Source of the DNA: Salinigranum marinum
GTDB lineage: Archaea > Halobacteriota > Halobacteria > Halobacteriales > Haloferacaceae
NCBI RefSeq assembly: GCF_024228675.1
Contig: NZ_CP100461.1
Coordinates: 1,054,001-1,118,000, forward strand
Direction: 5' to 3'
DNA: 64,000 bases
In this document: positions 4,069 to 52,574 of the stretch, one piece after another
How the letters are laid out: every line of letters starts with the position of its first letter
How positions within the stretch are numbered: position 1 is the first letter of the stretch
The notes under the pieces: generated by a model
What the model saw: only the letters and a program-made list of their open reading frames with translations
Databases searched by the model: none
Told to the model about the DNA's origin: nothing
Translations under genes and position numbers: made by a program

Positions 4069-4088
4069 CCCGAGCCCCAGGTTCGACC

Positions 4089-6191: not shown

Positions 6192-6194
6192 GGC

Positions 6195-6590: not shown

Positions 6591-6625
6591 ACGCACGGGT
6601 TCGGAATCGAGCGTCTTAACCCTGT

Positions 6626-7174: not shown

Positions 7175-7285
7175 GTTCACCCGTTGAAGGGAGAGGGGAG
7201 TATATAAAATCCGCCCTCTCGACGTCGAACCCCCACCGTCGCCGGGTCCGTCACCGGTTTACCATCGGGTAGTGTAGCGGACGAC

Positions 7286-8679: not shown

Positions 8680-8717
8680 GTCTCGGCGGAGACCGCCTGC
8701 GAGTAAAGTGGTTGCGG

Positions 8718-8972
8718 TCAGTCACGGCGCCAGATATCGACACACCGCGCCGAACAGAAGACGAACCGCTCGCGTTCGACGCTCCGTTTCTCGCCCGCGT
8801 CGTCCGGTCGCAGGAGTTCCATTCCGTAGTGGGTACCGGTCAGGTCGACGTCGGCCCCGCAGGCGGCGCACTCGGTGATCCCCTCACGCCAGGAGGCGTA
8901 CGGACGCACGTCCTGAACGACCCAGTCCGGGCCGGGGCGGGGACGGGCGACGTGGCGCTTCGTGTGGGACAT
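8718..8972 (-). CDS. Small zinc-binding protein (CxxC / CxxxC)
   Basis: 84 residues with a CAAC pair and, 40 residues later, FCSARC, spaced to bind one zinc ion like treble-clef or zinc-ribbon proteins. The ATG at 8972 fits the start of the conserved part. Haloarchaea carry many such small zinc-finger proteins, some shown to affect stress, biofilm or lipid traits; the role of this one is unknown. It lies 38 bases upstream of the DUF5804-like gene on the same strand. Confidence 0.75.
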   Translation of the reverse strand: MSHTKRHVARPRPGPDWVVQDVRPYASWREGITECAACGADVDLTGTHYGMELLRPDDAGEKRSVERERFVFCSARCVDIWRRD

Positions 8973-9105
8973 ACTCCCCTGTACGAGCTACAGCTATGTA
9001 AATCCATTTTTGTGTGATCGTTCACCGTGTTTCAGATCGTATCTCGTGGAATAATCCGACTCGGTTAGCACTGTTCGTGTTCGGTCGGACGACATCTTCG
9101 ATCTG

Positions 9106-10290
9106 TCAGGTCTCGTCGCTCCCGGGTTCCTCCTCGGCCACGGTCGCCTCGCGGGCGGCGGCGGCCGCGCGGTCGAGGAGGTCGTCCGGTTCGGCCGCCC
9201 GCACCGCGGCGCGGGCGGCGGCCGTCTCGGGGTGCGACGGCGCGACGCGCTCACAACCCACGGGGAGCGTCGCGTCGTCGAACGTCCCGATGTCACGCGC
9301 GCAGGCGACGATGTCGTCTTTGTCCCACGTCAAGAGCGGTCGGTAGACGGGGCAGTCGACGGCGGCGGCCGTGACCGCGAGGTTCGGGCCCGTCTGACTC
9401 GACTTCTGGCCCACCGACTCGCCCGTCGCGACGGCGTGTGCGCCCTCGGTCTCGGCGACGACTTCGGCCATCCGGAGCATCGCCCGGCGGAGCGAGAGCA
9501 TCCGCGTGTCGCCGACCTCCCGCACCAGGCGCTCGACCACCGGTCCCCCGGGGACGACCCGGAGGCGGACGTCGGCGTTCGGCGCGCGCCGCCGGAGGCC
9601 GCGGACCGTCTCGGCCGCGCGGGCGCGGTGGTCAGCGCCGCCGTACGCCCCGATATCCACGTACAACGGCACGACACCGCAGCCACGCCGCAACAGTTGC
9701 CAGGCGGCGACGGGGGAGTCGATCCCGCCGCTCACGAGCGCGACGACGGTCCCCTGCGAGCCGACGGGAAACCCACCCGGGCCGTCGTACTGGACGGCGC
9801 TGACGAGGGCCCGCGCCTCGCGACAGTCGACCCGGTAACAGTGGTCGGGGTCGTCGAGGTCGACGGTGCCGCCGACGGCGTCGAGCACGGCGTCGCCGCC
9901 GACGCGTTCGATGTCGGCGCTGGTGAACGGGTGCGCGTCGGTCGGTCCCGCGCGTTCCCCACGGATCGCGAACGTCTCGTCTCGGGCGTGGTTCGCGGCC
10001 GTCCGGAGCGCCTCGGCGATGCTGTCGAGGGTCGGCTCGCGCTGCCGTGCCGGCCGCGCCCAGACGACCCCGGGGGTCTCGGCGGCGGCCCGGGCACGCC
10101 GGTCGAGTTCGGCGGTCGGCCCGTGGAGGTAGAGTCGCGACCACGTCCGCTCGACCGTCGCGTCGAGTCCACGGTCGGCGAGGACCGCGTCGAGGTTTAC
10201 CGCAAGCCGATCGAGCAGTTTCGTCCGGACCGACGCGCTCTTGATCCCGATCTCGCCGTATCCGACGACGACGGTCGCGCTGGATACCAC
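9106..10290 (-). CDS. thiI: tRNA sulfurtransferase ThiI (tRNA 4-thiouridine synthesis)
   Basis: Puts sulfur into U8 of tRNA and may supply sulfur for the thiazole ring of thiamine. The N-terminal ferredoxin-like/THUMP region (VVVGYGEIGIKS, TWSRLYLHG) is followed by the PP-loop ATP pyrophosphatase motif VALVSGGIDSPVAAW, then TGESVGQKSSQT and LLTWDKDDIV. There is no rhodanese domain. I chose GTG 10290 (394 aa) because the family begins at about VVVGYGEIG; an in-frame GTG at 10350 would add 20 atypical residues. It diverges from ppk1. Confidence 0.92.
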   Translation of the reverse strand: MVSSATVVVGYGEIGIKSASVRTKLLDRLAVNLDAVLADRGLDATVERTWSRLYLHGPTAELDRRARAAAETPGVVWARPARQREPTLDSIAEALRTAANHARDETFAIRGERAGPTDAHPFTSADIERVGGDAVLDAVGGTVDLDDPDHCYRVDCREARALVSAVQYDGPGGFPVGSQGTVVALVSGGIDSPVAAWQLLRRGCGVVPLYVDIGAYGGADHRARAAETVRGLRRRAPNADVRLRVVPGGPVVERLVREVGDTRMLSLRRAMLRMAEVVAETEGAHAVATGESVGQKSSQTGPNLAVTAAAVDCPVYRPLLTWDKDDIVACARDIGTFDDATLPVGCERVAPSHPETAAARAAVRAAEPDDLLDRAAAAAREATVAEEEPGSDET

Positions 10291-38130: not shown

Positions 38131-38497
38131 ACGCGATTTGTCGGCAACGGCGCTCAAATAAGTTTGGCATGGGTGGCACGAGCATGCCACGATCCGACCA
38201 GCCGTCACGCCGGCTCGACCCCGACTACTCGGCAAAGAGCGGGCGATCCGCCGTCTCCGACGGCGTGTCCCGGTCTCGATGCCGGACTCCCGAGTGCGCG
38301 CGCGACCCACCTGAAGGCAGGCACGTGGCCAAATAATCGGTTGGCTGGCGGTTTCTATCGACTAAAATCACACTGTGCTAAACCCCCGAGAGAGCAAATG
38401 GAACAGCCAGTACAGGAAGCCAGCGTAACTCAGCCGAAAACAAGGGGTACAGAACAGTGCCGCCGCTCAGTAGTCAGCGGGCACGGGGAGACGTGAG
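38131..38497. other. Intergenic region spanning the left edge of the island
   Basis: 367 bases. Near 38166-38190 overlapping palindromic words (GGCATG...CATGCC and GTGGCA-CGAGCA-TGCCAC) lie just upstream of the aminotransferase promoter. At about 38330 the base composition shifts to AT-richer sequence. The rest, up to the transposase-like stop, holds no coding frame and no clear terminal repeat. Confidence 0.45.
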
Positions 38498-40480
38498 CTA
38501 GTCGGGCGGGTCAAGACCGTAGAACTTCTTCGCCACCGTCAAGAACTGATTCGCGTCCACACGCGGCGAATACGTCGCATTCTCGCCCTCGATAGCGAGC
38601 TTTACCAACAAGTCCACAAGACGCCAGACATTGTACAAGACGCACGCGAACGCGAAATTGAAGAACCGATACGTGTGGCGTTTGCTCGTCGTACGGACAC
38701 GAAACGTCTTGATTTGCTTATAGCCGTTCTCGATACCCCAGCGGTGGCGGTACCGGCGAACCATCCGCTCCACCATGTGGATGCGCTCTTTCTCGCTATC
38801 TCCCTCATCTATCGTCACGCTGGGATGGTTAGTTTCGAACAGCACGTACGCCTGTACGTCTTCGTCGTTCCCGGGGGTTGGCTTGTTCGCCTCGTCATCC
38901 CGAACTTCATCTACGACTGACCCGAACCCATGCCGGTCGTCGTCTTCCTCAAGGCCGATACCGAGGTCGGCGAGTTCTTCGCGCATCTCCTCCCGGATAC
39001 TCGGCCTCTCCTCATCGGATTCTCGGGGCTCTTCCGTGTCCTCTGTCTCGGGAGTGGTGTCCTTGCTGGACGGGAGAAACATTTGCTTACGGTTCGGGCC
39101 ATCCTCAACGCGGTTCTCTTCGATATGAACCGTCTTCCCTGCCCGACGAAGCCGCGTACACGTCGCTCTCTCGGACTGGAACTTCCGTGCGCCGTTCAGG
39201 TAGTAGACACCATGCTTCTCACACGCGTCCTTCACACCCTTCTTGTCGAACTCTCTGTCCATCATCACGAGTTCGATATCGTCCACGAGGTCGAGTGCGT
39301 TGTCCAGCAGACTGTCCACGATATCAGCTCGCTTCATCCCACGCTTGACCGGAACCGCATCAAGAACAAGTGGGATATCATAGCCTACAATCTGGATAGT
39401 CGCCCACTGATAATACACCTCGCCATCCTTGTAGCCGAGAAGCCAGTCTTCGGTGATGCGGTTGTCCTCGCCGCGCTCAATTTGGCCAGTCCACGGGTTT
39501 CCTTTCGTGATGTCGATGGCCGCCCAGAGTTTTCCGACGAGCTCTGCATTATGCCGAGCGCGGGCGATGAGCATCCGCGTGGCTTCGTGGAGCATTGAGC
39601 GAATTTCTTCGACAGTGAGCTTCCCCATCTGGTAACGGTGATTCGACGCACTGGGCGTTCGGTCACGTTGAGAATCGATGAAGAAGGAGTGCTGACCACT
39701 CTGGGCGTACATATTCTCCCGCATCCCCATGTAGGCATGCTGCTCCCAGAACGCATTCTCGTGAATCGACGTATTCTCAGCCCGCTTCAAGTAGAACGTA
39801 TCTGTGACGAACGGTTTGGCCTGTTGCCAGACCTCTTCCGTTTTCTCTGTGATGAGACGGGTTTCCGACCGCTTGCTTGTCGCGGCGGTCGCCTCCGGTT
39901 GGAACACCTCGTCTGGAGCAGGGATGTTGTTCTCACGTGCGACACGCACCACCTCTTTAGCAACTACACGACAGAACGCCTTCGTCGTCTCAGGGAACGA
40001 ATCTGTCCACAACTCCCAGAGTCGAGATTGTTTTGGCGGGGCTGGCTGAATCACATCGCTATCGGTCGTTTCAACAAACCCGTATTGGACTGCCATCTCA
40101 GGGTGTTGCTGGAAGTACCGTTCAAGACGCGTCTCTCGCCACCCCATCACTTCACGCAGGATATGTGCCCGTAGTAAGGGTGGTAGCCCCGTGTAGTTGT
40201 AATGCCACCTTGCGCGGGTATCAGGCACCGCAGAACTGAACTCAAGGGCCGCTACGAGGTCTTTGACACTGTCGTTCTCCTCCTCGTGCTTACCGTACCA
40301 CAGGCTGGCTCGGAGAGGTGAAGGGGTTTCGCCTATTGATATGTAGATATCGTGGGCAATATCAAACGGGTAATCAGGGAGTTGGTGACGCCAAATATCG
40401 GCCCCACGAGAAAGCCCCACCCAGTGCTGGCTCTCATCGGAGGGGGCGGTGGTTGGTGGGTCCGAGGCGTCGTCTGACAT
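38498..40480 (-). CDS. DDE (RNase H-fold) transposase-like protein
   Basis: 660 residues from ATG 40480. A DDE triad is visible: D323 (AAIDITKGNPW), D408 (VMMDREF) and E584 (RHRWGIENGYKQIK), the last in the Y/R-(2)-R-(3)-E style motif of IS4-like transposases, followed by the conserved YRFFNFAFACVLYNVWRLVD. The ~320 residues before the first D and the acidic insertion between D2 and E (about 470-545) make it longer than most. I found no terminal inverted repeats or target duplication, so it may be a transposase whose ends are lost or a domesticated one. Confidence 0.85.
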   Translation of the reverse strand: MSDDASDPPTTAPSDESQHWVGLSRGADIWRHQLPDYPFDIAHDIYISIGETPSPLRASLWYGKHEEENDSVKDLVAALEFSSAVPDTRARWHYNYTGLPPLLRAHILREVMGWRETRLERYFQQHPEMAVQYGFVETTDSDVIQPAPPKQSRLWELWTDSFPETTKAFCRVVAKEVVRVARENNIPAPDEVFQPEATAATSKRSETRLITEKTEEVWQQAKPFVTDTFYLKRAENTSIHENAFWEQHAYMGMRENMYAQSGQHSFFIDSQRDRTPSASNHRYQMGKLTVEEIRSMLHEATRMLIARARHNAELVGKLWAAIDITKGNPWTGQIERGEDNRITEDWLLGYKDGEVYYQWATIQIVGYDIPLVLDAVPVKRGMKRADIVDSLLDNALDLVDDIELVMMDREFDKKGVKDACEKHGVYYLNGARKFQSERATCTRLRRAGKTVHIEENRVEDGPNRKQMFLPSSKDTTPETEDTEEPRESDEERPSIREEMREELADLGIGLEEDDDRHGFGSVVDEVRDDEANKPTPGNDEDVQAYVLFETNHPSVTIDEGDSEKERIHMVERMVRRYRHRWGIENGYKQIKTFRVRTTSKRHTYRFFNFAFACVLYNVWRLVDLLVKLAIEGENATYSPRVDANQFLTVAKKFYGLDPPD

Positions 40481-40502
40481 TGGCTTTCTGGCTTGCCGAG
40501 GC

Positions 40503-40521
40503 TAGGTTTGATTCAAACCTA
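40503..40521. promoter_or_regulatory. Operator-like palindrome, copy 1
   Basis: TAGGTTTGA-T-TCAAACCTA has perfect 9-bp arms. It lies 23 bases before the transposase-like start codon, on the side of that gene. It aligns with two more 17-bp sites nearer the wHTH gene. Confidence 0.55.
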
Positions 40522-40602
40522 ATCTTCGGCGTGTGGCTTCCACTTCTTCCACTTCAGATACCACTATGACCGGCACGATTGATAGGTAGGAAGCCAGAAC
40601 CT

Positions 40603-40619
40603 GAGTTCGACCAGAACCC
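40603..40619. promoter_or_regulatory. Operator-like site, copy 2
   Basis: GAGTTCGACCAGAACCC matches copy 3 (GAGTTTGATTAGAACCT) at 13 of 17 positions and has the same half-site spacing as copy 1. Confidence 0.5.
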
Positions 40620-40620
40620 G

Positions 40621-40639
40621 CTGTAACAGCAAGTTACAG
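40621..40639. promoter_or_regulatory. Inverted repeat in the divergent promoter region
   Basis: CTGTAAC-AGCAA-GTTACAG has perfect 7-bp arms and abuts operator copy 2. It may be an additional binding site or a small hairpin in the leader. Confidence 0.45.
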
Positions 40640-40653
40640 TATGTATAGAATCT

Positions 40654-40670
40654 GAGTTTGATTAGAACCT
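40654..40670. promoter_or_regulatory. Operator-like site, copy 3
   Basis: GAGTTTGATTAGAACCT ends 42 bases before the wHTH start codon, overlapping where its promoter must lie (TTCATATCTTATC follows at 40673-40685). This position suits repression of the wHTH gene, perhaps by its own product. Confidence 0.5.
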
Positions 40671-40712
40671 AAGTTCATATCTTATCAACCTCGGGCGAGC
40701 GATTCCCAGTTG

Positions 40713-41153
40713 ATGTCCCTCTCTATCGAGGATTACCTCTTCAAAGACTCCGCAATCAACGTTCTATGCGAACTTGACCCGGAAGGGTCCCGCTTGGACG
40801 AACTCGACGAAAGGTGTCCAACATCGAGAAGCACGATTAGTGAGGTACTGGGGCAGGGGCGAATGCTGGGTCTCCTCGAACAATACGCAATAACAGGGCC
40901 AGAGGGTCAATTGGGGTGGCGGTTTACGCCGAAGGGAGCAACGCTTCGGCTGGTACTGGAAGATATGGGTACGACAGGGGCCTACAAAGACTACAAATCT
41001 GCGAAAGCACGGTATGAAAAACACGTCGGGCAGGCCCGCCACAGAATCTTCGAGAATCTCGAAGGACTAGAAAACGCAGAGGCAAACGAGAACAGCTTAG
41101 AGCGTCTTCTCGACCGTTACAAACAGGTCGAAGAAACAGACGACGAGAAATGA
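40713..41153 (+). CDS. Winged-helix DNA-binding regulator
   Basis: 146 residues from ATG 40713. A winged helix-turn-helix occupies residues ~10-85 (AINVLCELDPEGSRLDELDE, STISEVLGQGRMLGLLEQY, GQLGWRFTPKGATLRLVLEDM), and a helical tail (NAEANENSLERLLDRYKQVEE, in parts) may dimerise it. No ligand domain is seen. It is divergent from the transposase-like gene with three operator-like sites between them, which suggests autoregulation and joint control. Confidence 0.8.
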   Translation: MSLSIEDYLFKDSAINVLCELDPEGSRLDELDERCPTSRSTISEVLGQGRMLGLLEQYAITGPEGQLGWRFTPKGATLRLVLEDMGTTGAYKDYKSAKARYEKHVGQARHRIFENLEGLENAEANENSLERLLDRYKQVEETDDEK

Positions 41154-41192
41154 CAGACAAACACTTGCCGCACTGACCTTTACGTCGCCGAT

Positions 41193-41840
41193 TCAGCCAT
41201 CGGGGGGACTGAGATTCTTCATTCGGAAGTCTGATTTCGGAACGTACCGCCCAGCGAGGACGGCGAGCTCACGTGTCCGCTCGATGTCGGCGAGGTTGTG
41301 CAACAACAACGGAACCCAATCGCCGTCTCGGTGCGTTTGCACGGCACTTGCGCTGTCGTCGAACGGGTCACAGTCGTCCTTCCCGATTAGCGCGTCGTAC
41401 ACGCCTACGAGGTCGCTGACATCGCCCGTGTCGAACCGGTCCACCATGTCCATCGTGTCCGCGTACGCTACGTCAGGGAACGGCCATGATACGTCTCGGC
41501 GGAGGCACGCACTCCGGATGAACGGAAGGTCGAAGCCGCCCCGCCACCGCTCGCCATTGTACGCAGTGAGGTAATGGCGGTCTCCGTCGATGGTTCGGGT
41601 TGCGAAGTCCTCCAACCCGGTCAAGAGGTGCTCTTCGTCTTGAAAGACGGACACACGGACGTTCGAGCCGGATTCATGCTCAACCTCGGTTGAGAGTCGA
41701 GTGGCGTCGGCTTCACGCCCAGTGGTGTTTAGTGCGAGCCACGAGCCCATATCTGTGGTCAGGCCTGCGACTGTGACGACCGACCCCGGTTCTAATCCCG
41801 AGGTCTCGATGTCGAACGCAATGGGACTGAGATTACCCAT
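41193..41840 (-). CDS. DEDD-type 3'-5' exonuclease-like (RNase H fold) protein
   Basis: 215 residues from ATG 41840 (MGNLSPIAFDIETSG). Exo I motif is D10-x-E12. YNGERWRGGFDLPFIRSACL supplies the Exo II aspartate, and NLADIERTRELA gives a likely Exo III aspartate. This matches the DnaQ-like/YprB-like fold; the role could be trimming DNA or RNA. It is convergent with the wHTH gene. In haloarchaea such genes occur in plasmids and islands, which would fit here. Confidence 0.75.
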   Translation of the reverse strand: MGNLSPIAFDIETSGLEPGSVVTVAGLTTDMGSWLALNTTGREADATRLSTEVEHESGSNVRVSVFQDEEHLLTGLEDFATRTIDGDRHYLTAYNGERWRGGFDLPFIRSACLRRDVSWPFPDVAYADTMDMVDRFDTGDVSDLVGVYDALIGKDDCDPFDDSASAVQTHRDGDWVPLLLHNLADIERTRELAVLAGRYVPKSDFRMKNLSPPDG

Positions 41841-41989
41841 ACGAGTATCCAGAACGAATCCGATAGTAAGCAAAGGCGTGTCATTTCCACACTTCCAATA
41901 GAGCGTCTGAGCCCCTCGCCACGGTCCAGAAATCCTCGTCCGTACCCCGCTGAAGCAACTCTTTTAGCGCGATGTAGTGAGGTGTAGGT

Positions 41990-42403
41990 ATGGGAAATCT
42001 TGTGGAAATCTCCCCAGCGATTGCTCTCCGGCTACACGAAATCACGCCCTCGGATGAACAGACTCTCGTTCGTATCGGACCTGAACGACCCGACATCAGG
42101 CGACCTCGCGTCTTCCATGTCCCTGTATCGACCCCGAACGCTGGGGAGACCGTTGTTGTTGGATATCTCTTTGAGGCGGCAGGTGAGTCAAAGGCGTTCG
42201 AGTGTCTCCTCTCCAAGTACGATAATGACTGGGAGACCGTTGGGTGTCAGAAAATAGCCGAACTGATTCACGAGGCAGCTATGGGTGTCTCTGTCGATAC
42301 AGGTGAACGAACGCCTATTGAATTCGATGGTCCGGAGACCACTGTCGACCGGATTCTTTCCGAGTTGGAAGGGTTCGGCGGTGAATTGGAAATCCTTCGA
42401 TAG
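41990..42403 (+). CDS. Hypothetical island protein
   Basis: 137 residues from ATG 41990, with a TATA-like CTTTTAGCG about 25 bases before it. It is alpha/beta in look (RPRVFHVPVSTPNAGETVVVG, GYLFEAAGESKAFECLLSKY, KIAELIHEAAMG). I do not recognise it. It lies divergent from the exonuclease gene and just before the Orc1/Cdc6-like gene on the same strand (98 bases), so it could belong to either unit. Confidence 0.65.
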   Translation: MGNLVEISPAIALRLHEITPSDEQTLVRIGPERPDIRRPRVFHVPVSTPNAGETVVVGYLFEAAGESKAFECLLSKYDNDWETVGCQKIAELIHEAAMGVSVDTGERTPIEFDGPETTVDRILSELEGFGGELEILR

Positions 42404-42470
42404 CACGGCCACTACCCTCCCACAGAGCGAGTCGGAGACAATTGGAAGAATTGGAAACCACCCACTTCCA

Positions 42471-42477
42471 CTTATTA
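42471..42477 (+). promoter_or_regulatory. TATA-like box for the Orc1/Cdc6-like gene
   Basis: CTTATTA is centred about 28 bases before ATG 42502, supporting a leaderless transcript with that start rather than the ATG at 42442. Confidence 0.5.
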
Positions 42478-42501
42478 CGTTGGAATCAGAATACCGACAA
42501 T

Positions 42502-43506
42502 ATGATTCAAGATGCACGGGTGCTCCAGCCGGAGTTTGTCCCCAAGGACATCGTGCATCGAACCCATCAGGTCAACACGCTTTCCGCGGCTCTCGACCCC
42601 GTTACCGACGGGGAACAAGGGGAAACGTCACTCTTGTACGGCCCATCGGGGACCGGAAAGACCTGCATTGCCCGGTACCTCACCGAGAAACTCCACGAGA
42701 GCGTCATTGACCTCACCACCCAGTACGTCAACTGCTGGGAGGACTACTCACGCTTCAAGACGCTCTACCGGATACTCGATGGGATTGGTCGGACCATGAA
42801 CGTGCATCGTCAGTCCACGCCGAAAGACGAGCTCCTCGAACGTCTACGAGAATACAACGATGCGCCCTATGTCGTCATCCTCGACGAAGTCGACCAACTG
42901 GAAGACAAGAGCGTCCTCTATGAACTGAACCGGACACCGAATCTTACGCTGATTCTCATCGCTAATCAGGAACAAGAACTCTTCGAACCGCTGTCTCCCC
43001 GTGTTTCCAGCCGACTGAGGGCAGCAAGCCGAATTGAATTTGCACGGTACGGCACCGACGAACTCATCGGTATTCTTGAACCTCGTGTTCGTTGGGGGCT
43101 ACACGAAGACGCGATAACGCACGCGCAATTGAAACTGATTGCTGAAACTGCGGCAGGTGATGCACGAGTCGGACTTGAAGTCTTGCGAGTGGCGGCACGT
43201 CAGGCCGAGCACCAAGGTCTCGATACAATTCCCGACGAGGTGATTCGTGAGGCGGTACCGGAAGCAGAATCGGAAATCCGGAAGCGAAACGTCGACGTTC
43301 TGACTGAGCATCAGCGAGTGCTCTACGAAATCATCACGGACTACGGAGAAATCCAACCAAGCGACCTGTATGCGGAGTACCGTAACCGCGTTGACGACCC
43401 GAAGTCAGATAGGATGGTTCGGAACTACCTCAGGAAGATGGAGCGGTACAATCTCGTTCGCGCTGAGGGCCAGAACCGCGGGCGCACTTATCACTCAGTC
43501 GCGTAG
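42502..43506 (+). CDS. Orc1/Cdc6-family AAA+ ATPase
   Basis: 334 residues. Walker A GPSGTGKT (47-54), Walker B VVILDEVDQ (124-132), sensor 1 TLILIANQ, an arginine-bearing box VSSRL, a lid domain, and a C-terminal winged helix (LTEHQRVLYEIITDYGEIQ, RMVRNYLRKMERYNLV). The N-terminal PEFVPKDIVHRTHQVNTL is the Orc1 signature. It is shorter than chromosomal Orc1 (about 400), as many plasmid or island copies are. It may start replication of a mobile element or serve the neighbouring restriction genes. Its stop overlaps the M-S gene's stop by 12 bases. Confidence 0.92.
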   Translation: MIQDARVLQPEFVPKDIVHRTHQVNTLSAALDPVTDGEQGETSLLYGPSGTGKTCIARYLTEKLHESVIDLTTQYVNCWEDYSRFKTLYRILDGIGRTMNVHRQSTPKDELLERLREYNDAPYVVILDEVDQLEDKSVLYELNRTPNLTLILIANQEQELFEPLSPRVSSRLRAASRIEFARYGTDELIGILEPRVRWGLHEDAITHAQLKLIAETAAGDARVGLEVLRVAARQAEHQGLDTIPDEVIREAVPEAESEIRKRNVDVLTEHQRVLYEIITDYGEIQPSDLYAEYRNRVDDPKSDRMVRNYLRKMERYNLVRAEGQNRGRTYHSVA

Positions 43507-45588
43507 CAATTGTCCATTTACTGCGTGATGTATGAGGGATTCACGGAGTTCTTCAGTGTAGTCTCTTACCTGTACTGCATTCGTCTCTGAGCCTTCTGTA
43601 TGACCGGTCGCTCGGTCCAGCAAGTTCACGATATGCTCCTGTTCATCCAGAGGTGGCTTTGGAATCGTGAATGAGAGCAAGTCTGATTTGCTAATGCGCG
43701 GCTGATTAGCCCCTTTCATCAGTGATTCTGCCTGTCTCCAGACGGTTGGAGACCGAAGAAAGTACGCAATGTATTGCTTAAGGAACCCTTCCTTCGGTTC
43801 CAGAACTAGAAGTTCGCTTGATGCAACTCCCTCGAAGTCGGGGCACACCACTTTGTTGAGATATGGTCGAAGTTTGCAGTAAAGGATGTCACCGGGTCCG
43901 AACTGCCGCTTACTTGAACCAATTTCTGACCCGACCACCTGCTTTGTTCCAATGATACGCCCCGTGTGAGACTCTACATCTTCGAGGTCAAGAAGAGTGA
44001 ACTCTTTATCTGGCGTGTCGCTTGGTGTCGTTAGGTTCGATTTGTACTCAACCGCTTCCCTCAATTCGCACGCCCCCCAGTCATCTGGAGTCGCTATATC
44101 ACCTGTTTGGAAGTGCGAGATTGCACGAACAAGTTCGCTGACGTTATTTTGTAACCCGTCAACGTGTCGTTGAAGGTCGTCGACCACACTATCTGGAGGA
44201 CGAGGAACGCTCGGAGGGGCATCCGTGTATGAGGAATAATTAAGAGCGTAGTTTTCGGATTTGACATCATCTATTGATACCTGAAACGCCCACTCGCTTT
44301 CCTCTCGCGAGGCCGAATGATAGAATTCTTCAAATCTCCTGAAGTGGTCCTCTGTCAGCGGATTTGCTTTATTGATAGGTTCTTCAGTGCTTCGGAGGTC
44401 GTAGTACCACACATTCTCCGTTCCACCTGAGTCTCGGTTGAAGAACAGAACATTTGTGTCAACAGGTGTATACGGGGCGAACGTGTTCTGTGGCAGGACA
44501 AGAATCGTATGGAGGTTGTAATTCTCCAATAAGAACTTCCGATGTTGCTCAGCATCGTCATTGAACAGTACGCCTTCTGGAACGATGACCGCCGCACGCC
44601 CTTCATCATTTAGTCGACCCATTATGTGTTGAAGGAAGAGGAATTCAATCGCCCGAGGATTCTTGAAGCGAATCTGTTCGTTGCTATCGAGGTTTTTGTT
44701 GTACCCCGGGCCGAACGGCGGATTTGCGATGATTACGTCGAACTCGTTATCGATATCCTCGTCATCGTACGTGGTCGGCTTGAGCGAGTCTGCCTGTTTG
44801 ATTGTAGTAGGTCGGATGTCGTGGAGAATCATGTTCATCAAGCCCAGTCTACGCGTCTGGGGAACCAGCTCTACGCCAGTTACACCACTGGAGAAGTCCG
44901 CCACCTCGTCGAAGGAATAGTCCGCGAACGAGTCAGTCTCCTCGTAGACGTGTCGAAACGCGGTTGTAATGAACCCGCATGTCCCCGACGCAGGGTCATG
45001 AATCGTCTCACCAAAATCCGGGTCAATCGCTTGGACCATCGTGCGGATGAGCGGCCTCGGTGTGAAGTATTGACCCAACCCACTCTTGGATTCCTTTGCG
45101 TATCGGCCAAGAAGTTCCTCATATGCCGCTCCTAGTGTATCGGGGTCGAGCGTGTTTCCCTCCCAGAAGGGCATCGCCTCAATTTCGTAAACAACGCGCT
45201 TGAAATTCGAAGAACTCTGAAACTTGTTCGTCACTCCTTCATATGCTTCCGAGAAAAAATCCCCATCGTTCCTCAACGCAACAAGAACGTCATTATAATA
45301 TTCAAATACCTCCTCGTACTCGTGTCCTTCCTCATAATCGAGAGCATTACTGTCGATTCGGAACGTACGGTCAAGTGACTCAACGTTCGAAAGAATATCA
45401 TCCCATCGAGTCCCCCGCGGTAGTTCCGACTGGAGGTCTGTCAGGCGGTCACTCTCTTTGACCGATTTGAGGAAGAGGAGTGCTGTGAGCTGTTCGATAT
45501 AGTCCCCGATGAAGACACCATCGTCCTTCAGCGGGTCACACGCTTTCCAAAACGCTTCACGTGCCTCCCGCTCATCTGCTGTACTCAT
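43495..45588 (-). CDS. Type I restriction-modification methylase fused to a specificity domain (HsdM-HsdS)
   Basis: 697 residues from ATG 45588. The HsdM part has the helical N-terminus (FLKSVKESDRL), GLGQYFTPRPL, the SAM-binding motif HDPASGTCGF (about 197-206) and catalytic NPPF (289-292) for N6-adenine methylation. From about 500, a single target recognition domain follows (GDILYCKLRPYLNKVV, SSELLVLEP, ISKSDLLSFTIPKPPLDEQEHIV). Only one TRD is present, so a dimer would read two half-sites. Translated after hsdR (38-base gap). Confidence 0.93.
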   Translation of the reverse strand: MSTADEREAREAFWKACDPLKDDGVFIGDYIEQLTALLFLKSVKESDRLTDLQSELPRGTRWDDILSNVESLDRTFRIDSNALDYEEGHEYEEVFEYYNDVLVALRNDGDFFSEAYEGVTNKFQSSSNFKRVVYEIEAMPFWEGNTLDPDTLGAAYEELLGRYAKESKSGLGQYFTPRPLIRTMVQAIDPDFGETIHDPASGTCGFITTAFRHVYEETDSFADYSFDEVADFSSGVTGVELVPQTRRLGLMNMILHDIRPTTIKQADSLKPTTYDDEDIDNEFDVIIANPPFGPGYNKNLDSNEQIRFKNPRAIEFLFLQHIMGRLNDEGRAAVIVPEGVLFNDDAEQHRKFLLENYNLHTILVLPQNTFAPYTPVDTNVLFFNRDSGGTENVWYYDLRSTEEPINKANPLTEDHFRRFEEFYHSASREESEWAFQVSIDDVKSENYALNYSSYTDAPPSVPRPPDSVVDDLQRHVDGLQNNVSELVRAISHFQTGDIATPDDWGACELREAVEYKSNLTTPSDTPDKEFTLLDLEDVESHTGRIIGTKQVVGSEIGSSKRQFGPGDILYCKLRPYLNKVVCPDFEGVASSELLVLEPKEGFLKQYIAYFLRSPTVWRQAESLMKGANQPRISKSDLLSFTIPKPPLDEQEHIVNLLDRATGHTEGSETNAVQVRDYTEELRESLIHHAVNGQLLRD

Positions 45589-45626
45589 TAGTTCCGCAGT
45601 CAAAGAATCCGATTAAACCCATTTCC

Positions 45627-47849
45627 TCAATACGCCGGTTGGAGCAACTCGCCACGAATCCGTTCTAACACGTCAACCAAAGCCTCGTCAGAACCGAAGG
45701 CATCTGCGGCCGACTGCCACCCACCAGCATCCACAAGCTGGGGATGCGTGAAGTGAATCCGCGTTAGTGCCGTCTCTTCGACCGATGTTCGCTTGACGAG
45801 TATGCGTAGCCACCAACGTTCCTCGTCGGAAACCGACTCTTGTTCCGTCAATCGTTCTACAGCTGCCTCCTCGCGGTCTTCCGGCGTGGAGATGACCTTG
45901 CGGGGTGAGACCCCCCAATAGATGAAATCGATGAGTTCGGACTGCTCGCTACCGAACACGCGCCGGAGGCGGTCCAGTGAAAACTTCTCTTCCTGCGCCT
46001 CAAGCACTTCCTCTGCATCAGCTATCTGTTCCTCAGTCGTTGGTCGTGTCGTATCCGCAATCGCTGCTATAACGGTATCGTCGTTGAGAGCATCCTGAAC
46101 GAAATCCATGAATCGGAGTTGGTAGGCCTCATACGGGAGAATCTCTTTCCGGGTGCGAATGAATCGAGTGTTCTCAACGACCTCGTCCAAATCGTTGACA
46201 ATGACCAACTCCGACTCGGGTGGGTTTCCACCGCCTTCAGTCGGGTCACCGTCTGTCGGGTCATTCGGAGGCCACGTCTCAGTATTGAACGGTGGAACTG
46301 CCGCGAAGTATTCGCTTGCACCGACGCAATCGTATATAGTGAAGTGGGTCTTTCCATCGTACTGGCGCGTCCCCCGGCCCATCATCTGATTGTAGAGAAC
46401 GGGGGTCTGGACGGGACGGAGGAGAATGATATTGTTGAGTGCGCGGATATCGACACCGGTGGTGAGCATATCGACCGTGACGAGAATCCGAGGGTTGGTG
46501 TGACGGTCGCGGAAGTTCTGCAGTACCGTGTCCTGATTGCGGCGTTTCGAAGTTAACCAGTCAACCTCGTCCTTGTTGAATACGGTTCGGAAGTCCTTGA
46601 CAACCTCTTCTGCATGGGCTTGACTGACTGCGAACACCAGTGCCAAGTCCTTCGGTCCAGAATTCTGTTTATATATCTCTGCAACTTTTCTATGAGTGTC
46701 CTTCGGGTGAAATGACCGTCCGAGCGTGTCCGCTGAGTGGAAAACTCCATCTTTGTCCTCGATACCCTCCATTGTGATTCGTGTTCGAATACGGTGCATA
46801 TCGAACGGAGCAACGTACCCATCTTCCACACCACGTTCGTATCCATATCGTGCCGCGACCTTCCCTTCGAAGCGGGCAACAGTTCGCTTCGTCGGGGTTG
46901 CTGTCAGTCCGATTTCGAACGCATCGAAGAGGTTGAGAACTGCACCGTAGCCATCGTTCTTGTAAATCGACCGGTGGCACTCGTCAGTCACAATGACATC
47001 GAAATCGCCAATCCGAAGCTCGAAATCGTCGCGTTCGGTGAGCGTGTACATTTTCTGGAGCGTCGTGACGACTACATCGGCTTTTCGAAGGTCTGAATCA
47101 TCCTCCTCAAGATTCGTCACGACGAACTCATCGGCAAGGGTCTGGCCCGAGGGGGTCTTATACGAGCAGAACGACCCGTGTGCTTGGTTTGCCAACGCTC
47201 GCGTGTCTGGAATAAAGAGGACGCGTGTCGCGAGACCGCTTCGAAGCAACCGATAAACAGAGGCGATTGCTGTTCTGGTCTTCCCCGTCCCGGTGGCCAT
47301 GTGAATTAGTGCTGCCATCCGACCGTCCGCAAGTTGCGCTTCAATTGCCTCTACAGCGTCTTTCTGATAATATCGGAGACCAGAGTCTGTCGTCTCCACG
47401 GGATTGTCTGAGAGCCATTCGAGCCCCTTCGTGTAGTCCTTCGATAGGAGCCGTTCAAGCTCGTCGGGAGAGAAGAACTGTGAGAGTTCTCGTTCGCGAA
47501 ACGTGTTCGGACGGAGGTCGCGGAACCGGATTTCCGACCCGTTCGTGGCTGCCGCAAAGGGAACGTGTCCGAATTCAGCAGGTCCGGGAAGGTCAAGTGC
47601 GTACTCTTCAGATTGCTCAAGTGGCGCGTATGCACTTTCGTCGAGCGGTTTCGCTTCGAGAGTCATGGCCTCGATGCCCTGTAGATAGAATACGTAGTCG
47701 CAGCGAATTCCGCTCTCTGTGATGACTTCAGTTCGATACCCTGTGTCATCAGTGTCTGTGTCGTCTATTCGGTCCCATCCGGCGTCAGCAAGCTTAGAGT
47801 CGATAATCTGTCTGGCTTCGTGTTCGGGGCCGTCGGACGGGGGTTTCAT
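45627..47849 (-). CDS. hsdR: Type I restriction endonuclease subunit R (HsdR)
   Basis: 740 residues. The PD-(D/E)xK nuclease comes first: D51 (RCDYVFYLQG), E65-A-K67 (LEAK). The superfamily 2 translocase follows: Walker A MATGTGKT (184-191), DECH (290-293), GLTATP, and the C-terminal motifs VTVDMLTTGVDI and QMMGRGTRQ. It cuts unmodified DNA after ATP-driven translocation with the M-S protein. It is shorter than EcoKI-type HsdR (about 1,000+) and like the EcoEI/compact group. First gene of the R then M-S unit. Confidence 0.95.
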   Translation of the reverse strand: MKPPSDGPEHEARQIIDSKLADAGWDRIDDTDTDDTGYRTEVITESGIRCDYVFYLQGIEAMTLEAKPLDESAYAPLEQSEEYALDLPGPAEFGHVPFAAATNGSEIRFRDLRPNTFRERELSQFFSPDELERLLSKDYTKGLEWLSDNPVETTDSGLRYYQKDAVEAIEAQLADGRMAALIHMATGTGKTRTAIASVYRLLRSGLATRVLFIPDTRALANQAHGSFCSYKTPSGQTLADEFVVTNLEEDDSDLRKADVVVTTLQKMYTLTERDDFELRIGDFDVIVTDECHRSIYKNDGYGAVLNLFDAFEIGLTATPTKRTVARFEGKVAARYGYERGVEDGYVAPFDMHRIRTRITMEGIEDKDGVFHSADTLGRSFHPKDTHRKVAEIYKQNSGPKDLALVFAVSQAHAEEVVKDFRTVFNKDEVDWLTSKRRNQDTVLQNFRDRHTNPRILVTVDMLTTGVDIRALNNIILLRPVQTPVLYNQMMGRGTRQYDGKTHFTIYDCVGASEYFAAVPPFNTETWPPNDPTDGDPTEGGGNPPESELVIVNDLDEVVENTRFIRTRKEILPYEAYQLRFMDFVQDALNDDTVIAAIADTTRPTTEEQIADAEEVLEAQEEKFSLDRLRRVFGSEQSELIDFIYWGVSPRKVISTPEDREEAAVERLTEQESVSDEERWWLRILVKRTSVEETALTRIHFTHPQLVDAGGWQSAADAFGSDEALVDVLERIRGELLQPAY

Positions 47850-47936
47850 GTGACAGTTGACTCGTAGCGAGCCTATTGCCCTTCCTTCGACCTCACAGAT
47901 GAACTGACGCTTAGGAGGCCGTGGCGAACGACGAAG

Positions 47937-50864
47937 TCAGAAGTCGTCTAAAGTCGTACTCTCGCGGGCCTCTGCGACACCGGGGAGTTCTACCACGTTC
48001 GAATCTGCCTCGCGCCGCGCTTCCCGACCGACAAGAACCGTCGTCAATTCTCCAGCACCCTCTTCACGCATCTGGAGCATTGCGTCAATAGATGCTTTGA
48101 GCTCGTCGAGGCGGTCACCCATCCCCAACGTTTCCATTACAGCTTGGTCCAACTTGTCCCTTTCCTCCTCCGTGTCCTTGTGTGTGGGCTCCTCGTGTGC
48201 TAATTCGGCCTCCATGAGGTCGTCGAACGCGGATTTGATTCGTTCCGTCGTCTCGTCATCAAATTCACGAGGATTCGGCACCTTCCAGAGTTCAGTTTCG
48301 TACACCTTAGTCTGCAACCGCGTCATCCCCTGCCCTCCAGCACGTCTGCCCTTCAGTTCGTTCGAGAGCCAGACGACCCGGGAGTTCAGCAATCCACCAA
48401 GCAGTTTCTGGTCTACGTCGCCATGCGGAGCCACGTAGTAGAACTGGTCACTCGTCGGCGCGTCCGCGTTGTTCCAGAAGACTCGATGCGTCGTCCACGT
48501 GAACATCGTCGAGAGAATCTTTGGACGAGGGAGATTACCGAGGTCGAACCAGATGTCCCTTGTTCGCGTGGTGGGGCGGTCGTGATATCCATTATCCTCT
48601 CCCCACTCGATATACTCCAGCAACGCTGAGTGGTCATTCTCTTCTAACCATCCCTTCACCTGTTGCTCGCCTGTCGTGCCGAATTCAGCGTCGTCTTCGG
48701 TTGCCTCGTCGACGTACTCGTGAACGTCGAGAATACTCCATTCACTGGCGTCCTCGTCGGTGACTTTGATTGTGTCTACCTGACCAGTGGCCTTCAGTGC
48801 GTGAGAGGTGTACGGCTCTAACCCGAGTTCGTGGAAGTCCTCAGTATGGTCGAAATAGAAGGGGTTTGCCCCGGTAGTGATGCCGCGGCTTACTTCGGCA
48901 ATGTCACCGAGGTCAACCACGTTCTCGTGAGCGTCAAGGTCGAAGTAGAGCGGAGGCGCGAAGAAGAAGACGTTCCACTTCGCCTCGTGGTGGAGGGCCG
49001 CTTGCTTCCGAGTCACGAGCCGATAGTCGTCGTTCGTGATGAGTTTGTTCGGTTCCTCGTCCTGCTCCACGACCGCTGCGATTTCGTCCAGACTGAGCTC
49101 CTGCTTAATCCGTAGGAATTTCGCTACGTTGGAGTCTCGTTCGCTCTCGTCGCTCTGTTTGCGGAGGATGAGGATGCTACTATCGACCAGTGCGTCGTCG
49201 AACAGTTGCCGGTCGAATTTGATGACGGCGCGAACCTCGTAGTGGTCGAGAATGAACTGTTGAACGTCCTCGCCGTACTGCGTGTCGAGCCAGCGGTCAC
49301 TCGTGATGAAGCCGAAGTCACCGCCTTCGGAGAGGAACTCCGTGCTATGCGTGATGAAATACGCGTAGATGTCCGCATAGCTTGAGATGTAATCCGCGTC
49401 GATTTCCGCGTTAGTGAGGTGGTCACGGACTTTGTCCTTGTCATCGATGCTGTCCTGTGGGATGTACGGTGGGTTTCCAACGACAGCGTCGTAGCCGCCG
49501 CGTTGCTCTCCGAGACCGCCTTCGCTTTCCGACCCGCTCGCCCCTGCCATCTCACGTTCACCGAGGAGCTGGTACTTCTTCACGTCGAAGAAGTCCTTGA
49601 TTTCGATGTCGACCTCATCTGTGTATGCGGAGAGGTCCTGAATAGCGAGGTTAATCGCTGTGAGATGCGCGGGGAATCGGTTGATTTCGACACCAGAGAG
49701 GTGACTCAGGACGTGGTCGTGGCTTCCCGTGGATTCAGGAAGGTTGTTTCGGAGCCGGTGATACGCGCTCACAAGGAAGCCGCCACTGCCACAAGCCGGG
49801 TCCAGAACATCATCATCTGATGATTGGATGGTTAGCCGCGTAATCAAGTCACAGATGGCTGGAGGCGTGTAGTATTCGCCCATGGCTCGCCGCCGCTCAG
49901 CGGGGATGACGCCCTCGTAGATGCGCCCGATAACGTCGCTGTTGAACTGGCTAAGGTCGTAGTCATCAAGCTCATTGATGAACGCACGGAGTTTGCTTTC
50001 TACAGAATCGAGCGGTATCTCGCTGTATATGTCGTCATGCTCGTAGATGGCCTCGAAATCGACTTCCTCTACGAGATGCGTGAAGTATTCTTCGAGGTCA
50101 TCCTGCACGTGGTTCGGTCGTGGAGCGAGCGGGTCGATATCCTGCGAGTACGTCGGAGAGTCTTCCAGTATCTTGTAGAAGATGACCTTGTTGATTATCA
50201 GGTACGCTGCTTGCTCAGCGAATTCACGTCGAACTTCTTGGCTCTCGTCTTCGTCACTCGGGTCGTACTCGATACCCTGTGCCGCCGTCCACTGGCTAAA
50301 ATCCTCTTGGAAACTATCGTCTTCTTCGAGGTGGTCTTCGAGTTCGTCCTCTACGCGCGGGGCCATGAACTCGTGAAGCGTGTTCACTCGCTCGATGAAC
50401 ACGTCGTCTACGGCGTCCCATTTTTGCGCTCCCTCCGAGAGCCGCGCGATTTCGTCGAGGAGCGTTCCTGCGAACTCCTCTGGGTCGGAGATGATGTAGG
50501 ACTTCTGTGACCGTTCCAGCAGGGGGACGCCCTCCTCGAAGGCGTCGAAGACGACCATCCGCTTCTGGTTGTAGGTACAGAAGAAGGGAGCTCCGAGGTC
50601 TCCTGCGTATCCGAACGCTTGGCGGACTACGTCGGCTGCGTACGGGTCTGTTTCACGGGAGCCGTCGCCCTCGGGACGCTTGGCTTCGACGACGAAGACG
50701 GGGTCGTCCTTGTTGTCGAATACGACGATGTCGGCGCGACCTGAGATACCGTCGCTGTATTCAGCGCGTACGTCGCCGTACGTGATTGCCCCTCGATTGG
50801 GTTGTTCGTTGATTGCGCTCTTGAGGTGGGCGTAGAAGTCGAAGTGGATATCTGCTTCACTCAT
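47937..50864 (-). CDS. Type IIG-like restriction endonuclease/adenine methyltransferase
   Basis: 975 residues from ATG 50864. The N-terminus has a nuclease-like D45...E60-A-K62 (ADIVVFDNKDDPVFVVEAKRP in parts). A helical linker leads to GEYYTPPAICDLI, the SAM motif DPACGSGGF (355-363) and catalytic NPPY (464-467) of gamma-class N6-adenine methylases. The C-terminal third (about 650-975) should be the target recognition domain (TRLQTKVYETELWKVPNP). One chain can thus both cut and modify. A TATA-like box supports this start. 87 bases separate it from hsdR. Confidence 0.92.
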   Translation of the reverse strand: MSEADIHFDFYAHLKSAINEQPNRGAITYGDVRAEYSDGISGRADIVVFDNKDDPVFVVEAKRPEGDGSRETDPYAADVVRQAFGYAGDLGAPFFCTYNQKRMVVFDAFEEGVPLLERSQKSYIISDPEEFAGTLLDEIARLSEGAQKWDAVDDVFIERVNTLHEFMAPRVEDELEDHLEEDDSFQEDFSQWTAAQGIEYDPSDEDESQEVRREFAEQAAYLIINKVIFYKILEDSPTYSQDIDPLAPRPNHVQDDLEEYFTHLVEEVDFEAIYEHDDIYSEIPLDSVESKLRAFINELDDYDLSQFNSDVIGRIYEGVIPAERRRAMGEYYTPPAICDLITRLTIQSSDDDVLDPACGSGGFLVSAYHRLRNNLPESTGSHDHVLSHLSGVEINRFPAHLTAINLAIQDLSAYTDEVDIEIKDFFDVKKYQLLGEREMAGASGSESEGGLGEQRGGYDAVVGNPPYIPQDSIDDKDKVRDHLTNAEIDADYISSYADIYAYFITHSTEFLSEGGDFGFITSDRWLDTQYGEDVQQFILDHYEVRAVIKFDRQLFDDALVDSSILILRKQSDESERDSNVAKFLRIKQELSLDEIAAVVEQDEEPNKLITNDDYRLVTRKQAALHHEAKWNVFFFAPPLYFDLDAHENVVDLGDIAEVSRGITTGANPFYFDHTEDFHELGLEPYTSHALKATGQVDTIKVTDEDASEWSILDVHEYVDEATEDDAEFGTTGEQQVKGWLEENDHSALLEYIEWGEDNGYHDRPTTRTRDIWFDLGNLPRPKILSTMFTWTTHRVFWNNADAPTSDQFYYVAPHGDVDQKLLGGLLNSRVVWLSNELKGRRAGGQGMTRLQTKVYETELWKVPNPREFDDETTERIKSAFDDLMEAELAHEEPTHKDTEEERDKLDQAVMETLGMGDRLDELKASIDAMLQMREEGAGELTTVLVGREARREADSNVVELPGVAEARESTTLDDF

Positions 50865-50881
50865 GGTCCGGGATATGACCT

Positions 50882-50891
50882 CAGTATAAGC
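50882..50891 (-). promoter_or_regulatory. TATA-like box for the type IIG-like gene
   Basis: On the minus strand GCTTATACTG lies about 23-28 bases before ATG 50864. Confidence 0.4.
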
Positions 50892-51016
50892 CCAATCAGT
50901 AGTAAGTTTCTGAAAAATCACCACACGAACAGTTCTTCCGACTCACCCGCATCCTATTCGAGACTCATTTTCGGGGAGGGGGAATGATTTAGTCCGAATG
51001 TACGGGTGTTCTGTCT

Positions 51017-51295
51017 ATGGGTAAGAACTGGGGAATGCTGAAATACATGGTGAACGCTCCGTTCGCTCGCCCAGTGAACTTCTTCAAGTATGGTGGTGGG
51101 TTCTACGCAATCCTCCGAGCGATTGATGCAGGACCTCCGTCTGGCCATTTCACGGTCGAGACATTCATCCCCATTCTGGTCACGTATCTCCAAACGAAGT
51201 ATCTGCCACCAAGTTCGGTCTGGGATGTAATCATCCCAATAGTGCTGGGTGCTGCAGCGGCGGGATTGAAATGGCGGGCTTCGCAGCGGTACTAG
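51017..51295 (+). CDS. Small membrane protein, unknown
   Basis: 92 residues from ATG 51017. The N-terminus is basic and aromatic (MGKNWGMLKYMVNAPFARP), and two hydrophobic stretches follow (TFIPILVTYLQ and WDVIIPIVLGAAAAGLKW). AT-rich base use matches the island. No known family. It is divergent from the type IIG-like gene. A small membrane protein beside restriction genes might be an effector, a holin-like protein or unrelated. Confidence 0.55.
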   Translation: MGKNWGMLKYMVNAPFARPVNFFKYGGGFYAILRAIDAGPPSGHFTVETFIPILVTYLQTKYLPPSSVWDVIIPIVLGAAAAGLKWRASQRY

Positions 51296-51551
51296 CTGCA
51301 CTCCTTGTCTCGGCCTCAGAGTTCCTACAGAATCTCCGACGCAGGCATCTCGTCCTCAGATTCCTCTGAGCTGGTCAATCCAACCGGTTATTCTTGACGT
51401 GCCTGACTTCAGACCCACAAATTGATATAGCGATATACAATTTACGAGTCGGGAGCCGGACGCCGAACAGTTCGGTGTTTAGACATTTGTGCCGGTAGGG
51501 TTCGACTACCAGACCGGAACGGACGGGGGGAGAGCGTGCCAGTTCGAGACC

Positions 51552-52574
51552 TCAACACAGCGAGTAGATGTGGTGTTCGTACGTCTTCCGGACGCGGTCG
51601 CCCCAGTTGTGAGTGTACGTGTCGACGATGTCGCCCGCGACGTCGCCGCGGAGATACTTCACGATGCCCCTGTCGCCCGTGCGGTCGCGGAGATGGGTGG
51701 TGAAGAAGTGACGGAAGTAGTGTGGCGTGACGTTCTCGTCGCTCCCGCCGCCCGTGCGGTGCCACCCCGCCGCCTCGGCGTGGTTGACGACGATCCGTCG
51801 GGCGGCCTTCGCCGACAGGCGCGTCCCCCAGTGGTCCCGGGTGCGGACAAAGAGTGGTTCGGCCGGCGAGCGGACGTCCGGACGGATCGCGAGCCACTCC
51901 GTGAGCACGGTGGCGAGTTCGTCGTCCACTGGGACGACCGTCGATCGTTCCCGTTTGTTCGAGTCGGTTCGGCGCTCGCCGTTCGTGGTCTCCCCGCGTG
52001 TCGGTTTCGACGAGACGAACAGCGAGTCGCCGCGGCCGTCGAGCTGGGGTCGTCCGCCGAGGCTGTACTCGTCTGCCGCGGCGGTGTCAGACAGTCGGAG
52101 GTCACGAACGTCGAGGTTGCAGAGCTCTCCGACCCGGACGCCACTCTTCAGAAGCGTCACGACGACGGCCCGGTCGAGCGGGTGAGTGATACTACCGACG
52201 AACGACCGCATCTCGGGCACCGACACGTCCCGCCGCGTCGGGTTCGTCTCGATCCGTTCGTCGAGTTCCTCCATCACCAGCGTCATGGGGTTCGACTCGA
52301 ACGCCTCGACCGAGTTCATGTACGTGTAAAACCGGTGGAGGTACGCCGCGTACGTCGCGATGGTACTCTCGGCCGCACTCCCCCGCTGGCGGTGGATCCA
52401 CGCCATGCAGTCGCGGTTCGTCGCCTCGTCGAGCGCCGTCGACCGCCCGTCGAGGAACGCCTCGAAGTCCTCGAGGACCCGTCGGTACGCCTCTTGCGTC
52501 CGATCCGACCGACCGTAGTACTCCATGTCCTGGAGGAAGTAGTCGATCGGCCGTTCCGATGCCGTCTCACTCAT
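51552..52574 (-). CDS. Tyrosine-type site-specific recombinase (integrase/XerC-like)
   Basis: 340 residues. The N-terminal SAM-like core-binding domain (TQEAYRRVLEDFEAFLDG) is followed by the catalytic domain: R147 (LLKSGVRVGEL), H285-x-x-R288 (HYFRHFFTTHL), H322 (TYTHNW) and the likely nucleophile Y332 (RKTYEHH). It probably breaks and rejoins DNA at a specific core site. GC-rich like the host chromosome, it lies just outside the AT-rich island, so whether it moved the island is open. It overlaps the upstream DUF5805-like gene by 8 bases. Confidence 0.92.
   Translation of the reverse strand: MSETASERPIDYFLQDMEYYGRSDRTQEAYRRVLEDFEAFLDGRSTALDEATNRDCMAWIHRQRGSAAESTIATYAAYLHRFYTYMNSVEAFESNPMTLVMEELDERIETNPTRRDVSVPEMRSFVGSITHPLDRAVVVTLLKSGVRVGELCNLDVRDLRLSDTAAADEYSLGGRPQLDGRGDSLFVSSKPTRGETTNGERRTDSNKRERSTVVPVDDELATVLTEWLAIRPDVRSPAEPLFVRTRDHWGTRLSAKAARRIVVNHAEAAGWHRTGGGSDENVTPHYFRHFFTTHLRDRTGDRGIVKYLRGDVAGDIVDTYTHNWGDRVRKTYEHHIYSLC

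Follow-up and report, generated by a model that had tools for sequence, protein, structure and literature searches.

A predicted operator switch run by an HxlR-like winged-helix protein in a haloarchaeal cargo transposon

An HxlR-like winged-helix (wHTH) protein encoded beside a DDE transposase in Salinigranum marinum is likely to run an element-encoded switch. The two genes are divergent, and their shared spacer carries sites that we read, by sequence comparison, as operators of the wHTH protein, with a specificity that would be insulated for each element family. Both genes belong to a 13.1-kb transposon within the 64,000-nucleotide stretch of DNA analysed here (the window; contig NZ_CP100461.1, positions 1,054,001 to 1,118,000). 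The gene order, the element boundaries, the pairing of the sites and their lineage specificity are observed directly. The gene pair, its spacer and one related promoter site are laid out as follows, in window coordinates.

38498 to 40480, minus strand: DDE transposase, 660 aa, ISH7/ISNCY-like (Pfam DDE_Tnp_1, E=1.5e-8)
40503 to 40521: candidate operator site 1, a perfect 19-bp palindrome TAGGTTTGATTCAAACCTA over the expected transposase BRE/TATA region
40528 to 40550, plus strand: conserved motif GGCGTGT-N3-TTCC-N5-TTCC, a candidate activator site adjoining the transposase core promoter on its upstream side
40603 to 40619: possible, weak operator site 2 (9/17 against site 1, 13/17 against site 3)
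40621 to 40639: inverted repeat CTGTAAC-AGCAA-GTTACAG, with 7-bp arms
40654 to 40670: candidate operator site 3, directly upstream of the wHTH core promoter
40713 to 41153, plus strand: HxlR/MarR-like winged-helix regulator, 146 aa (fold model, structural matches, and Pfam matches in relatives)
41875 to 41896, plus strand: second copy of the conserved motif, GGCGTGTCATTTCCACACTTCC, at the exo promoter

The transposase is an IS4-superfamily DDE enzyme with catalytic residues D323, D408 and E584 and a YREK motif. It aligns with the ISH7A transposase at 43.9% identity over 89%, and its score with the NCBIfam ISH3 transposase model (71.5 bits) does not reach the cut-off of 225. The AF2 model of the wHTH protein has a confident winged-helix fold (pLDDT 86), and its best PDB matches are MarR, HxlR and ArsR regulators, YodB included, with E values of about 1e-3. 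Three of four tested relatives pass the Pfam HxlR threshold (25.4-29 bits); the window protein scores 14.3 bits against a gathering cut-off of 20.8.

The initial annotation described three related operator-like sites in the spacer. All three are present, as 17-mers at 40504-40520, 40603-40619 and 40654-40670; the annotated span of 40503-40670 starts one base early for the 17-mers, and 40503 is where the site 1 palindrome itself starts. In ungapped alignment, sites 1 and 3 agree at 13 of 17 positions, as do sites 2 and 3, and sites 1 and 2 at just 9 of 17. The best in-register pair in the spacer, formed by sites 1 and 3, matches at 15 of 17 positions (GTTTGATTCAAACCTAA and GTTTGATTAGAACCTAA; p=0.010 against dinucleotide shuffles). 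Across the 4.9-Mb genome their common core GTTTGATTMRAACC has two copies, one at the transposase promoter and one at the wHTH promoter, and a reversed-pattern control found none. The resemblance between sites 1 and 3 is beyond chance. The site 1 palindrome has 9-bp arms, and arms of at least 8 bp arise in 3% of dinucleotide shuffles. Site 2 is weakly supported. The extra inverted repeat CTGTAAC-AGCAA-GTTACAG, also part of the initial annotation, exists but is not significant alone, because inverted repeats with 7-bp arms occur in 12% of shuffles; a functional role for it is not supported.

Haloarchaeal promoters are usually leaderless, and the TATA and BRE positions given here assume this arrangement rather than mapped starts. 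Site 1 then spans -24 to -40 from the transposase start (ATG at 40480, minus strand), site 3 spans -43 to -59 from the wHTH start (ATG at 40713), and site 2 spans -94 to -110. We infer binding, repression, autoregulation and induction on entry by the wHTH protein as follows. The protein most likely binds a 15-19 bp palindrome as a dimer. Bound to site 1, over the transposase BRE/TATA, it would block TBP/TFB and hold the transposase off; bound to site 3, a short way upstream of the wHTH core promoter, it would control how much wHTH protein is made, with site 2 perhaps auxiliary. An activator probably binds the GGCGTGT motif at the transposase and exo promoters. On entry into a cell without the cognate wHTH protein, the transposase would fire and then be shut off. 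As each element family would have its own wHTH/operator pair, coexisting elements would not cross-regulate.

Autoregulation could be positive, since the position of site 3 is upstream of, and not over, the core promoter of the wHTH gene. Upstream of BRE/TATA is the usual place for archaeal activators, HxlR/MarR proteins are often ligand- or redox-responsive, and YodB is among the structural matches. The wHTH protein might then be an activator, or else a dual regulator that responds to a ligand or to stress, activating itself from site 3 and turning the transposase on under a signal. We regard this as unlikely: site 1 occupies a repressing position at the transposase start, and C19 is invariant across ten aligned wHTH proteins, yet no sensor domain is visible in the protein.

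Relatives of the wHTH protein were sought in several hundred haloarchaeal genomes. A divergent DDE transposase lies beside the wHTH gene in 112 of the 132 fetched loci (duplicates counted), usually across a gap of 170-500 bp, and about 15% of wHTH loci have no transposase within the fetched stretch. The 101 divergent transposase-wHTH pairs form 42 clusters at 80% wHTH identity. This recurrence lends comparative support to the earlier proposal of a wHTH protein in control of both its own gene and the transposase gene, but not to site 2 and the extra repeat as functional parts of that control. The paired transposases belong to several families, some about 22-24% identical to that of the window. 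The transposase families vary and the wHTH stays, so the regulator, and not the transposase type, is the constant. These pairs mark the HxlR-like wHTH proteins as a family of dedicated partners of transposases. A search of viral contigs gave no match, and a single-sequence search of plasmid records gave one wHTH match.

The wHTH genes occur in elements of several kinds. This genome has two, whose exo proteins are 85% and Cdc6 proteins 73% identical; their wHTH proteins are just 37% identical and their operators differ. The C4 element has the candidate operators GATTAGATTCTAAC and GTTAAATTCTAAC. At L070-L073, and also L251, a 6.6-kb wHTH-bearing element carries a heavy-metal P-type ATPase as cargo. 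Copies of this transposon in four genomes, which represent different genera or families, are about 99% identical; it has the terminal inverted repeat (TIR) CATAGTTTCGGAAAGTAG and, in one genome, the 8-bp duplication AACTCCCC. The L074 element (3230-9731, reversed) has a perfect 18-bp TIR, CCAGAAGTTCGGCGTTTG, and a 5-bp duplication, ACCGT; its transposase is from another family, but its regulator is of the same kind. For compact two-gene elements (L220-L239), alignments show the pair moving as a unit of about 2.7-3.1 kb, and a scan for TIRs and duplications found no convincing ends in most.

Each pair was searched for two 17-mers that resemble each other and are separated by 45 bp or more. Twelve of 41 loci gave p<0.05 (Fisher p=8e-5), and the other 29 were not individually significant. 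In most pairs that bear the motif, the transposase promoter contains an AT-rich palindrome, such as AGTTAGAATTTAACT (L036), TTAGTCCATATTGGACTAA (L162) and AATACTTTGATTCGAAGTATT (L200), and the wHTH-side copy often starts 52-68 bp ahead of the wHTH start codon. Over 21 loci, the transposase-side sites are palindromic at a constant place, centred about 17 bp ahead of the motif (Fisher p=3e-4).

The resemblance between the sites could be a by-product of two AT-rich core promoters with TATA/BRE-like elements in a GC-rich genome, with no dedicated switch. The spacer is 47% GC in a window of 65% GC, sites 1 and 3 lie at or beside the expected core-promoter positions, and many single loci gave p>0.05. 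We compared the transposase-side site with the wHTH-side region of its own locus and of other loci. Across the 18 motif-bearing loci the own-locus match was better than the cross-locus match (mean 11.67 vs 10.42, sd 0.24; permutation p=5e-5), which argues against generic promoter AT-richness, since generic elements would not match better within a locus. Moreover, perfect or near-perfect palindromes at a fixed place are not TATA/BRE features, and the core GTTTGATTMRAACC is unique to the site pair in the genome. We give a promoter by-product little credence.

The operator sequence is lineage-specific and matched within the locus. The more alike two wHTH proteins are, the more alike are their operators (Mantel r=0.38, p=2e-4), and shared ancestry may account for part of this trend. 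The coverage of both divergent promoters claimed initially is borne out, in that each carries a matching lineage-specific site and the operator sequence tracks wHTH similarity, consistent with the predicted regulation. Homologous loci do not keep the letters of the sites, yet they retain sites at the same position and of palindromic form, as expected for a co-evolving repressor/operator pair. Least probable of the alternatives is that the operators are real but serve another regulator, a host factor or the transposase itself, while the wHTH protein acts on other genes: the second conserved spacer motif suggests more than one protein acting there, but the operator sequence co-varies with the adjacent wHTH, palindromes of the same kind stand beside transposases only about 22-24% identical with wHTH as the common gene, and a host factor would not switch specificity between one genome's two elements.

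Alongside the proposed wHTH operators, the conserved motif at 40528-40550, absent from the initial annotation, has a different behaviour. It adjoins the transposase operator, does not vary with the wHTH, and is found in about half of the clusters. The form GGCGTGT-N3-TTCC-N-TTCC is matched exactly three times in 4.9 Mb, and each match belongs to this module (the window element and the second element). It is probably a site for an activator shared by the transposase and exo. A terminal repeat was ruled out because the motif is internal, lies beside different transposases and at exo promoters, and is also missing from related elements without a wHTH. A host regulon site is not supported, with just those three matches in the genome.

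The boundaries and remaining genes of the element are listed below.

38304 to 38310: target-site duplication GACCCAC, left copy (TIR and duplication scan)
38312 to 38345, plus strand: left terminal inverted repeat TGAAGGCAGGCACGTGGCC..., transposase-side end (top pair in the scan)
41193 to 41840, minus strand: RNase H/DnaQ-like nuclease (exo), a neighbour kept in six related pairs
41990 to 42403, plus strand: 137-aa ORF, cargo (no match in family searches)
42442 to 43506, plus strand: Orc1/Cdc6-family replication initiator, cargo (TIGR02928, 203.7 bits)
43495 to 45603, minus strand: type I HsdM-HsdS fusion, cargo
45627 to 47849, minus strand: type I HsdR, cargo
47937 to 50924, minus strand: Eco57I/type IIG-like restriction-methyltransferase, cargo
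51378 to 51411, minus strand: right terminal inverted repeat TGAAGTCAGGCACGTCAAG (minus-strand reading; same scan)
51412 to 51418: target-site duplication GACCCAC, right copy (same scan)
51426 to 51444, plus strand: target-associated motif TATAGCGATATACAATTTA, 14 bp beyond the end of the element

When the window is scanned without bias for terminal repeats that come with a duplication, 38312-51411 ranks first (TIR 14/18, duplication 7/8). This 13.1-kb element has the TIR TGAAGGCAGGCACGT and the 7-bp repeat GACCCAC. Transposase relatives about 70% identical have the common terminal sequence TAGAAGGCAGGC..., and nine of the related elements have the same termini, each with an inverted partner and a duplication of about 6-8 bp. 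The flanks are separated by 339 bp in a congeneric genome, against 13.1 kb here, and the exact junction there is not alignable. The unit is a transposon, with terminal inverted repeats, a target duplication and an empty locus in a congener. Its boundaries take in the transposase, wHTH, exo, the 137-aa ORF, Orc1/Cdc6, HsdM-S, HsdR and the Eco57I/type IIG-like enzyme, and so place restriction-modification (anti-virus) genes inside the element. The comparison with ordinary insertion sequences drawn initially does not apply, as the gene pair sits in a cargo transposon of this size and not in an ordinary IS. Among the proteins that the element encodes, we recognise neither a recombinase nor a TnsA, TnsB, TnsC or TnsD homologue; the tyrosine recombinase encoded at 51552-52574 is beyond its boundary. 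An Orc1/Cdc6 gene and an RNase H-like nuclease also travel with the transposase-wHTH pair in L065, L067, L068, L074 and L077.

Insertion follows a motif. Each of the ten window-type elements has a copy of TTnATATnGCGnTATnnnATTTA at a distance of 13-15 bp. Under leave-one-out scoring, equally high scores are reached by no more than 15 of 528,000 background positions, in a background that includes true targets. Insertion beside the motif is seen at 51426-51444 and in the flanks of L070-L085, L089, L226-L231 and L250. The insertion distance is fixed by family, at 13-15, 17 or 22-24 bp, with ISH7A among the families. Of 293 haloarchaeal genomes, 198 have the pattern form of TTnATATnGCGnTATnnnATTTA; a reversed control gave three hits overall. 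TTnATATnGCGnTATnnnATTTA is a conserved AT-rich haloarchaeal motif that loosely resembles archaeal dif. The tyrosine recombinase just outside the element is XerA-like and stands beside the target motif; three congeneric genomes encode it at 84-85% identity and have the motif about 125-150 bp from the stop codon of the gene. The two are a candidate Xer/dif-like pair, a pairing that is rare elsewhere. The idea that the motif belongs to the XerA-like gene was rejected, since of 32 loci with the motif only three, one weak, have such a gene within 1.5 kb. The motif was also rejected as one gene's promoter, given its recurrent neighbours on either side, which we take to be a RIO2-kinase-like and a DUF5783-like protein. 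The literature searched held no description of a haloarchaeal dif, and a review of H. volcanii leaves the question open (PMC7776575). Other shared flanks, CACAACCTCGGAGGATRGATTTGATGCGTG and GAGACTAYAGCGGGTATAGCGGG..., were seen at the L070 far end and the L085 transposase end, and at the L070, L073 and L220 transposase ends; these are possibly other targets or remnants.

We put forward tentatively, as a possibility somewhat short of even, a large haloarchaeal class of cargo transposons built to one plan. Its transposase would be silenced by a dedicated HxlR-like repressor with private, fast-diverging operators (immunity groups), and it would insert at a fixed distance from TTnATATnGCGnTATnnnATTTA, maybe a dif/Xer-like or other chromosome-maintenance site.

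In bacteria, repression of a transposase through a dedicated partner gene is textbook knowledge, with Tn3 as the example. Tn3 TnpR represses both divergent genes, tnpA and tnpR, from res (PMC7157771). The present element is alike in its divergent transposase and small DNA-binding protein genes, with sites in the common spacer over both promoters, and by analogy zygotic induction would be expected. It differs in that TnpR is a serine resolvase whose sites are recombination sites, whereas here the regulator is an HxlR/MarR-like winged helix with no resolvase, the transposase is IS4/ISH-like and the element is archaeal. Tn7-like transposons (PMC8649781) also combine defence cargo with a preferred insertion site, but the window element has no recognised TnsA/B/C/D homologue. 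ISH7A (ISNCY group, Halobacterium NRC-1 pNRC100), with about 3.3 kb between short repeats, has a homologous DDE transposase (44% identity), extra genes divergent from it and the same flanking target motif. However, its divergent genes encode a membrane protein and a 65-aa XRE-type HTH protein, in place of the HxlR-like wHTH, exo, Cdc6 and restriction-modification genes found here; its ends are about GAyGTTGCGAAGATAGG against TGAAGGCAGGCACGT, and it has no defence cargo. HxlR/MarR factors such as YodB (PDB 5hs7) are similar to the wHTH protein in fold and sequence and have palindromic operators, but the wHTH family is transposon-borne, appears dedicated to the neighbouring transposase and has a C-terminal helical extension. 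The immunity repressors of temperate phages form element-specific repressor/operator pairs that diverge faster than neighbouring genes. The pairs proposed here are likewise element-specific and fast-diverging, but no phage genes are present and the predicted target is a transposase.

In the literature searched we found no description of an archaeal transposase repressed by a dedicated partner gene. Supported by comparison, the proposed switch would be a new and widespread archaeal variant of a known form of transposase control. If this is correct, an entire family of small regulators in archaea would gain a function, and natural repressor/operator pairs of differing specificities would become available by the dozen, for study and for haloarchaeal gene control. 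It would also account for how defence-carrying elements stay quiet side by side in one genome. The preferred insertion by a motif conserved across haloarchaea offers a handle on an unexplained chromosomal site.
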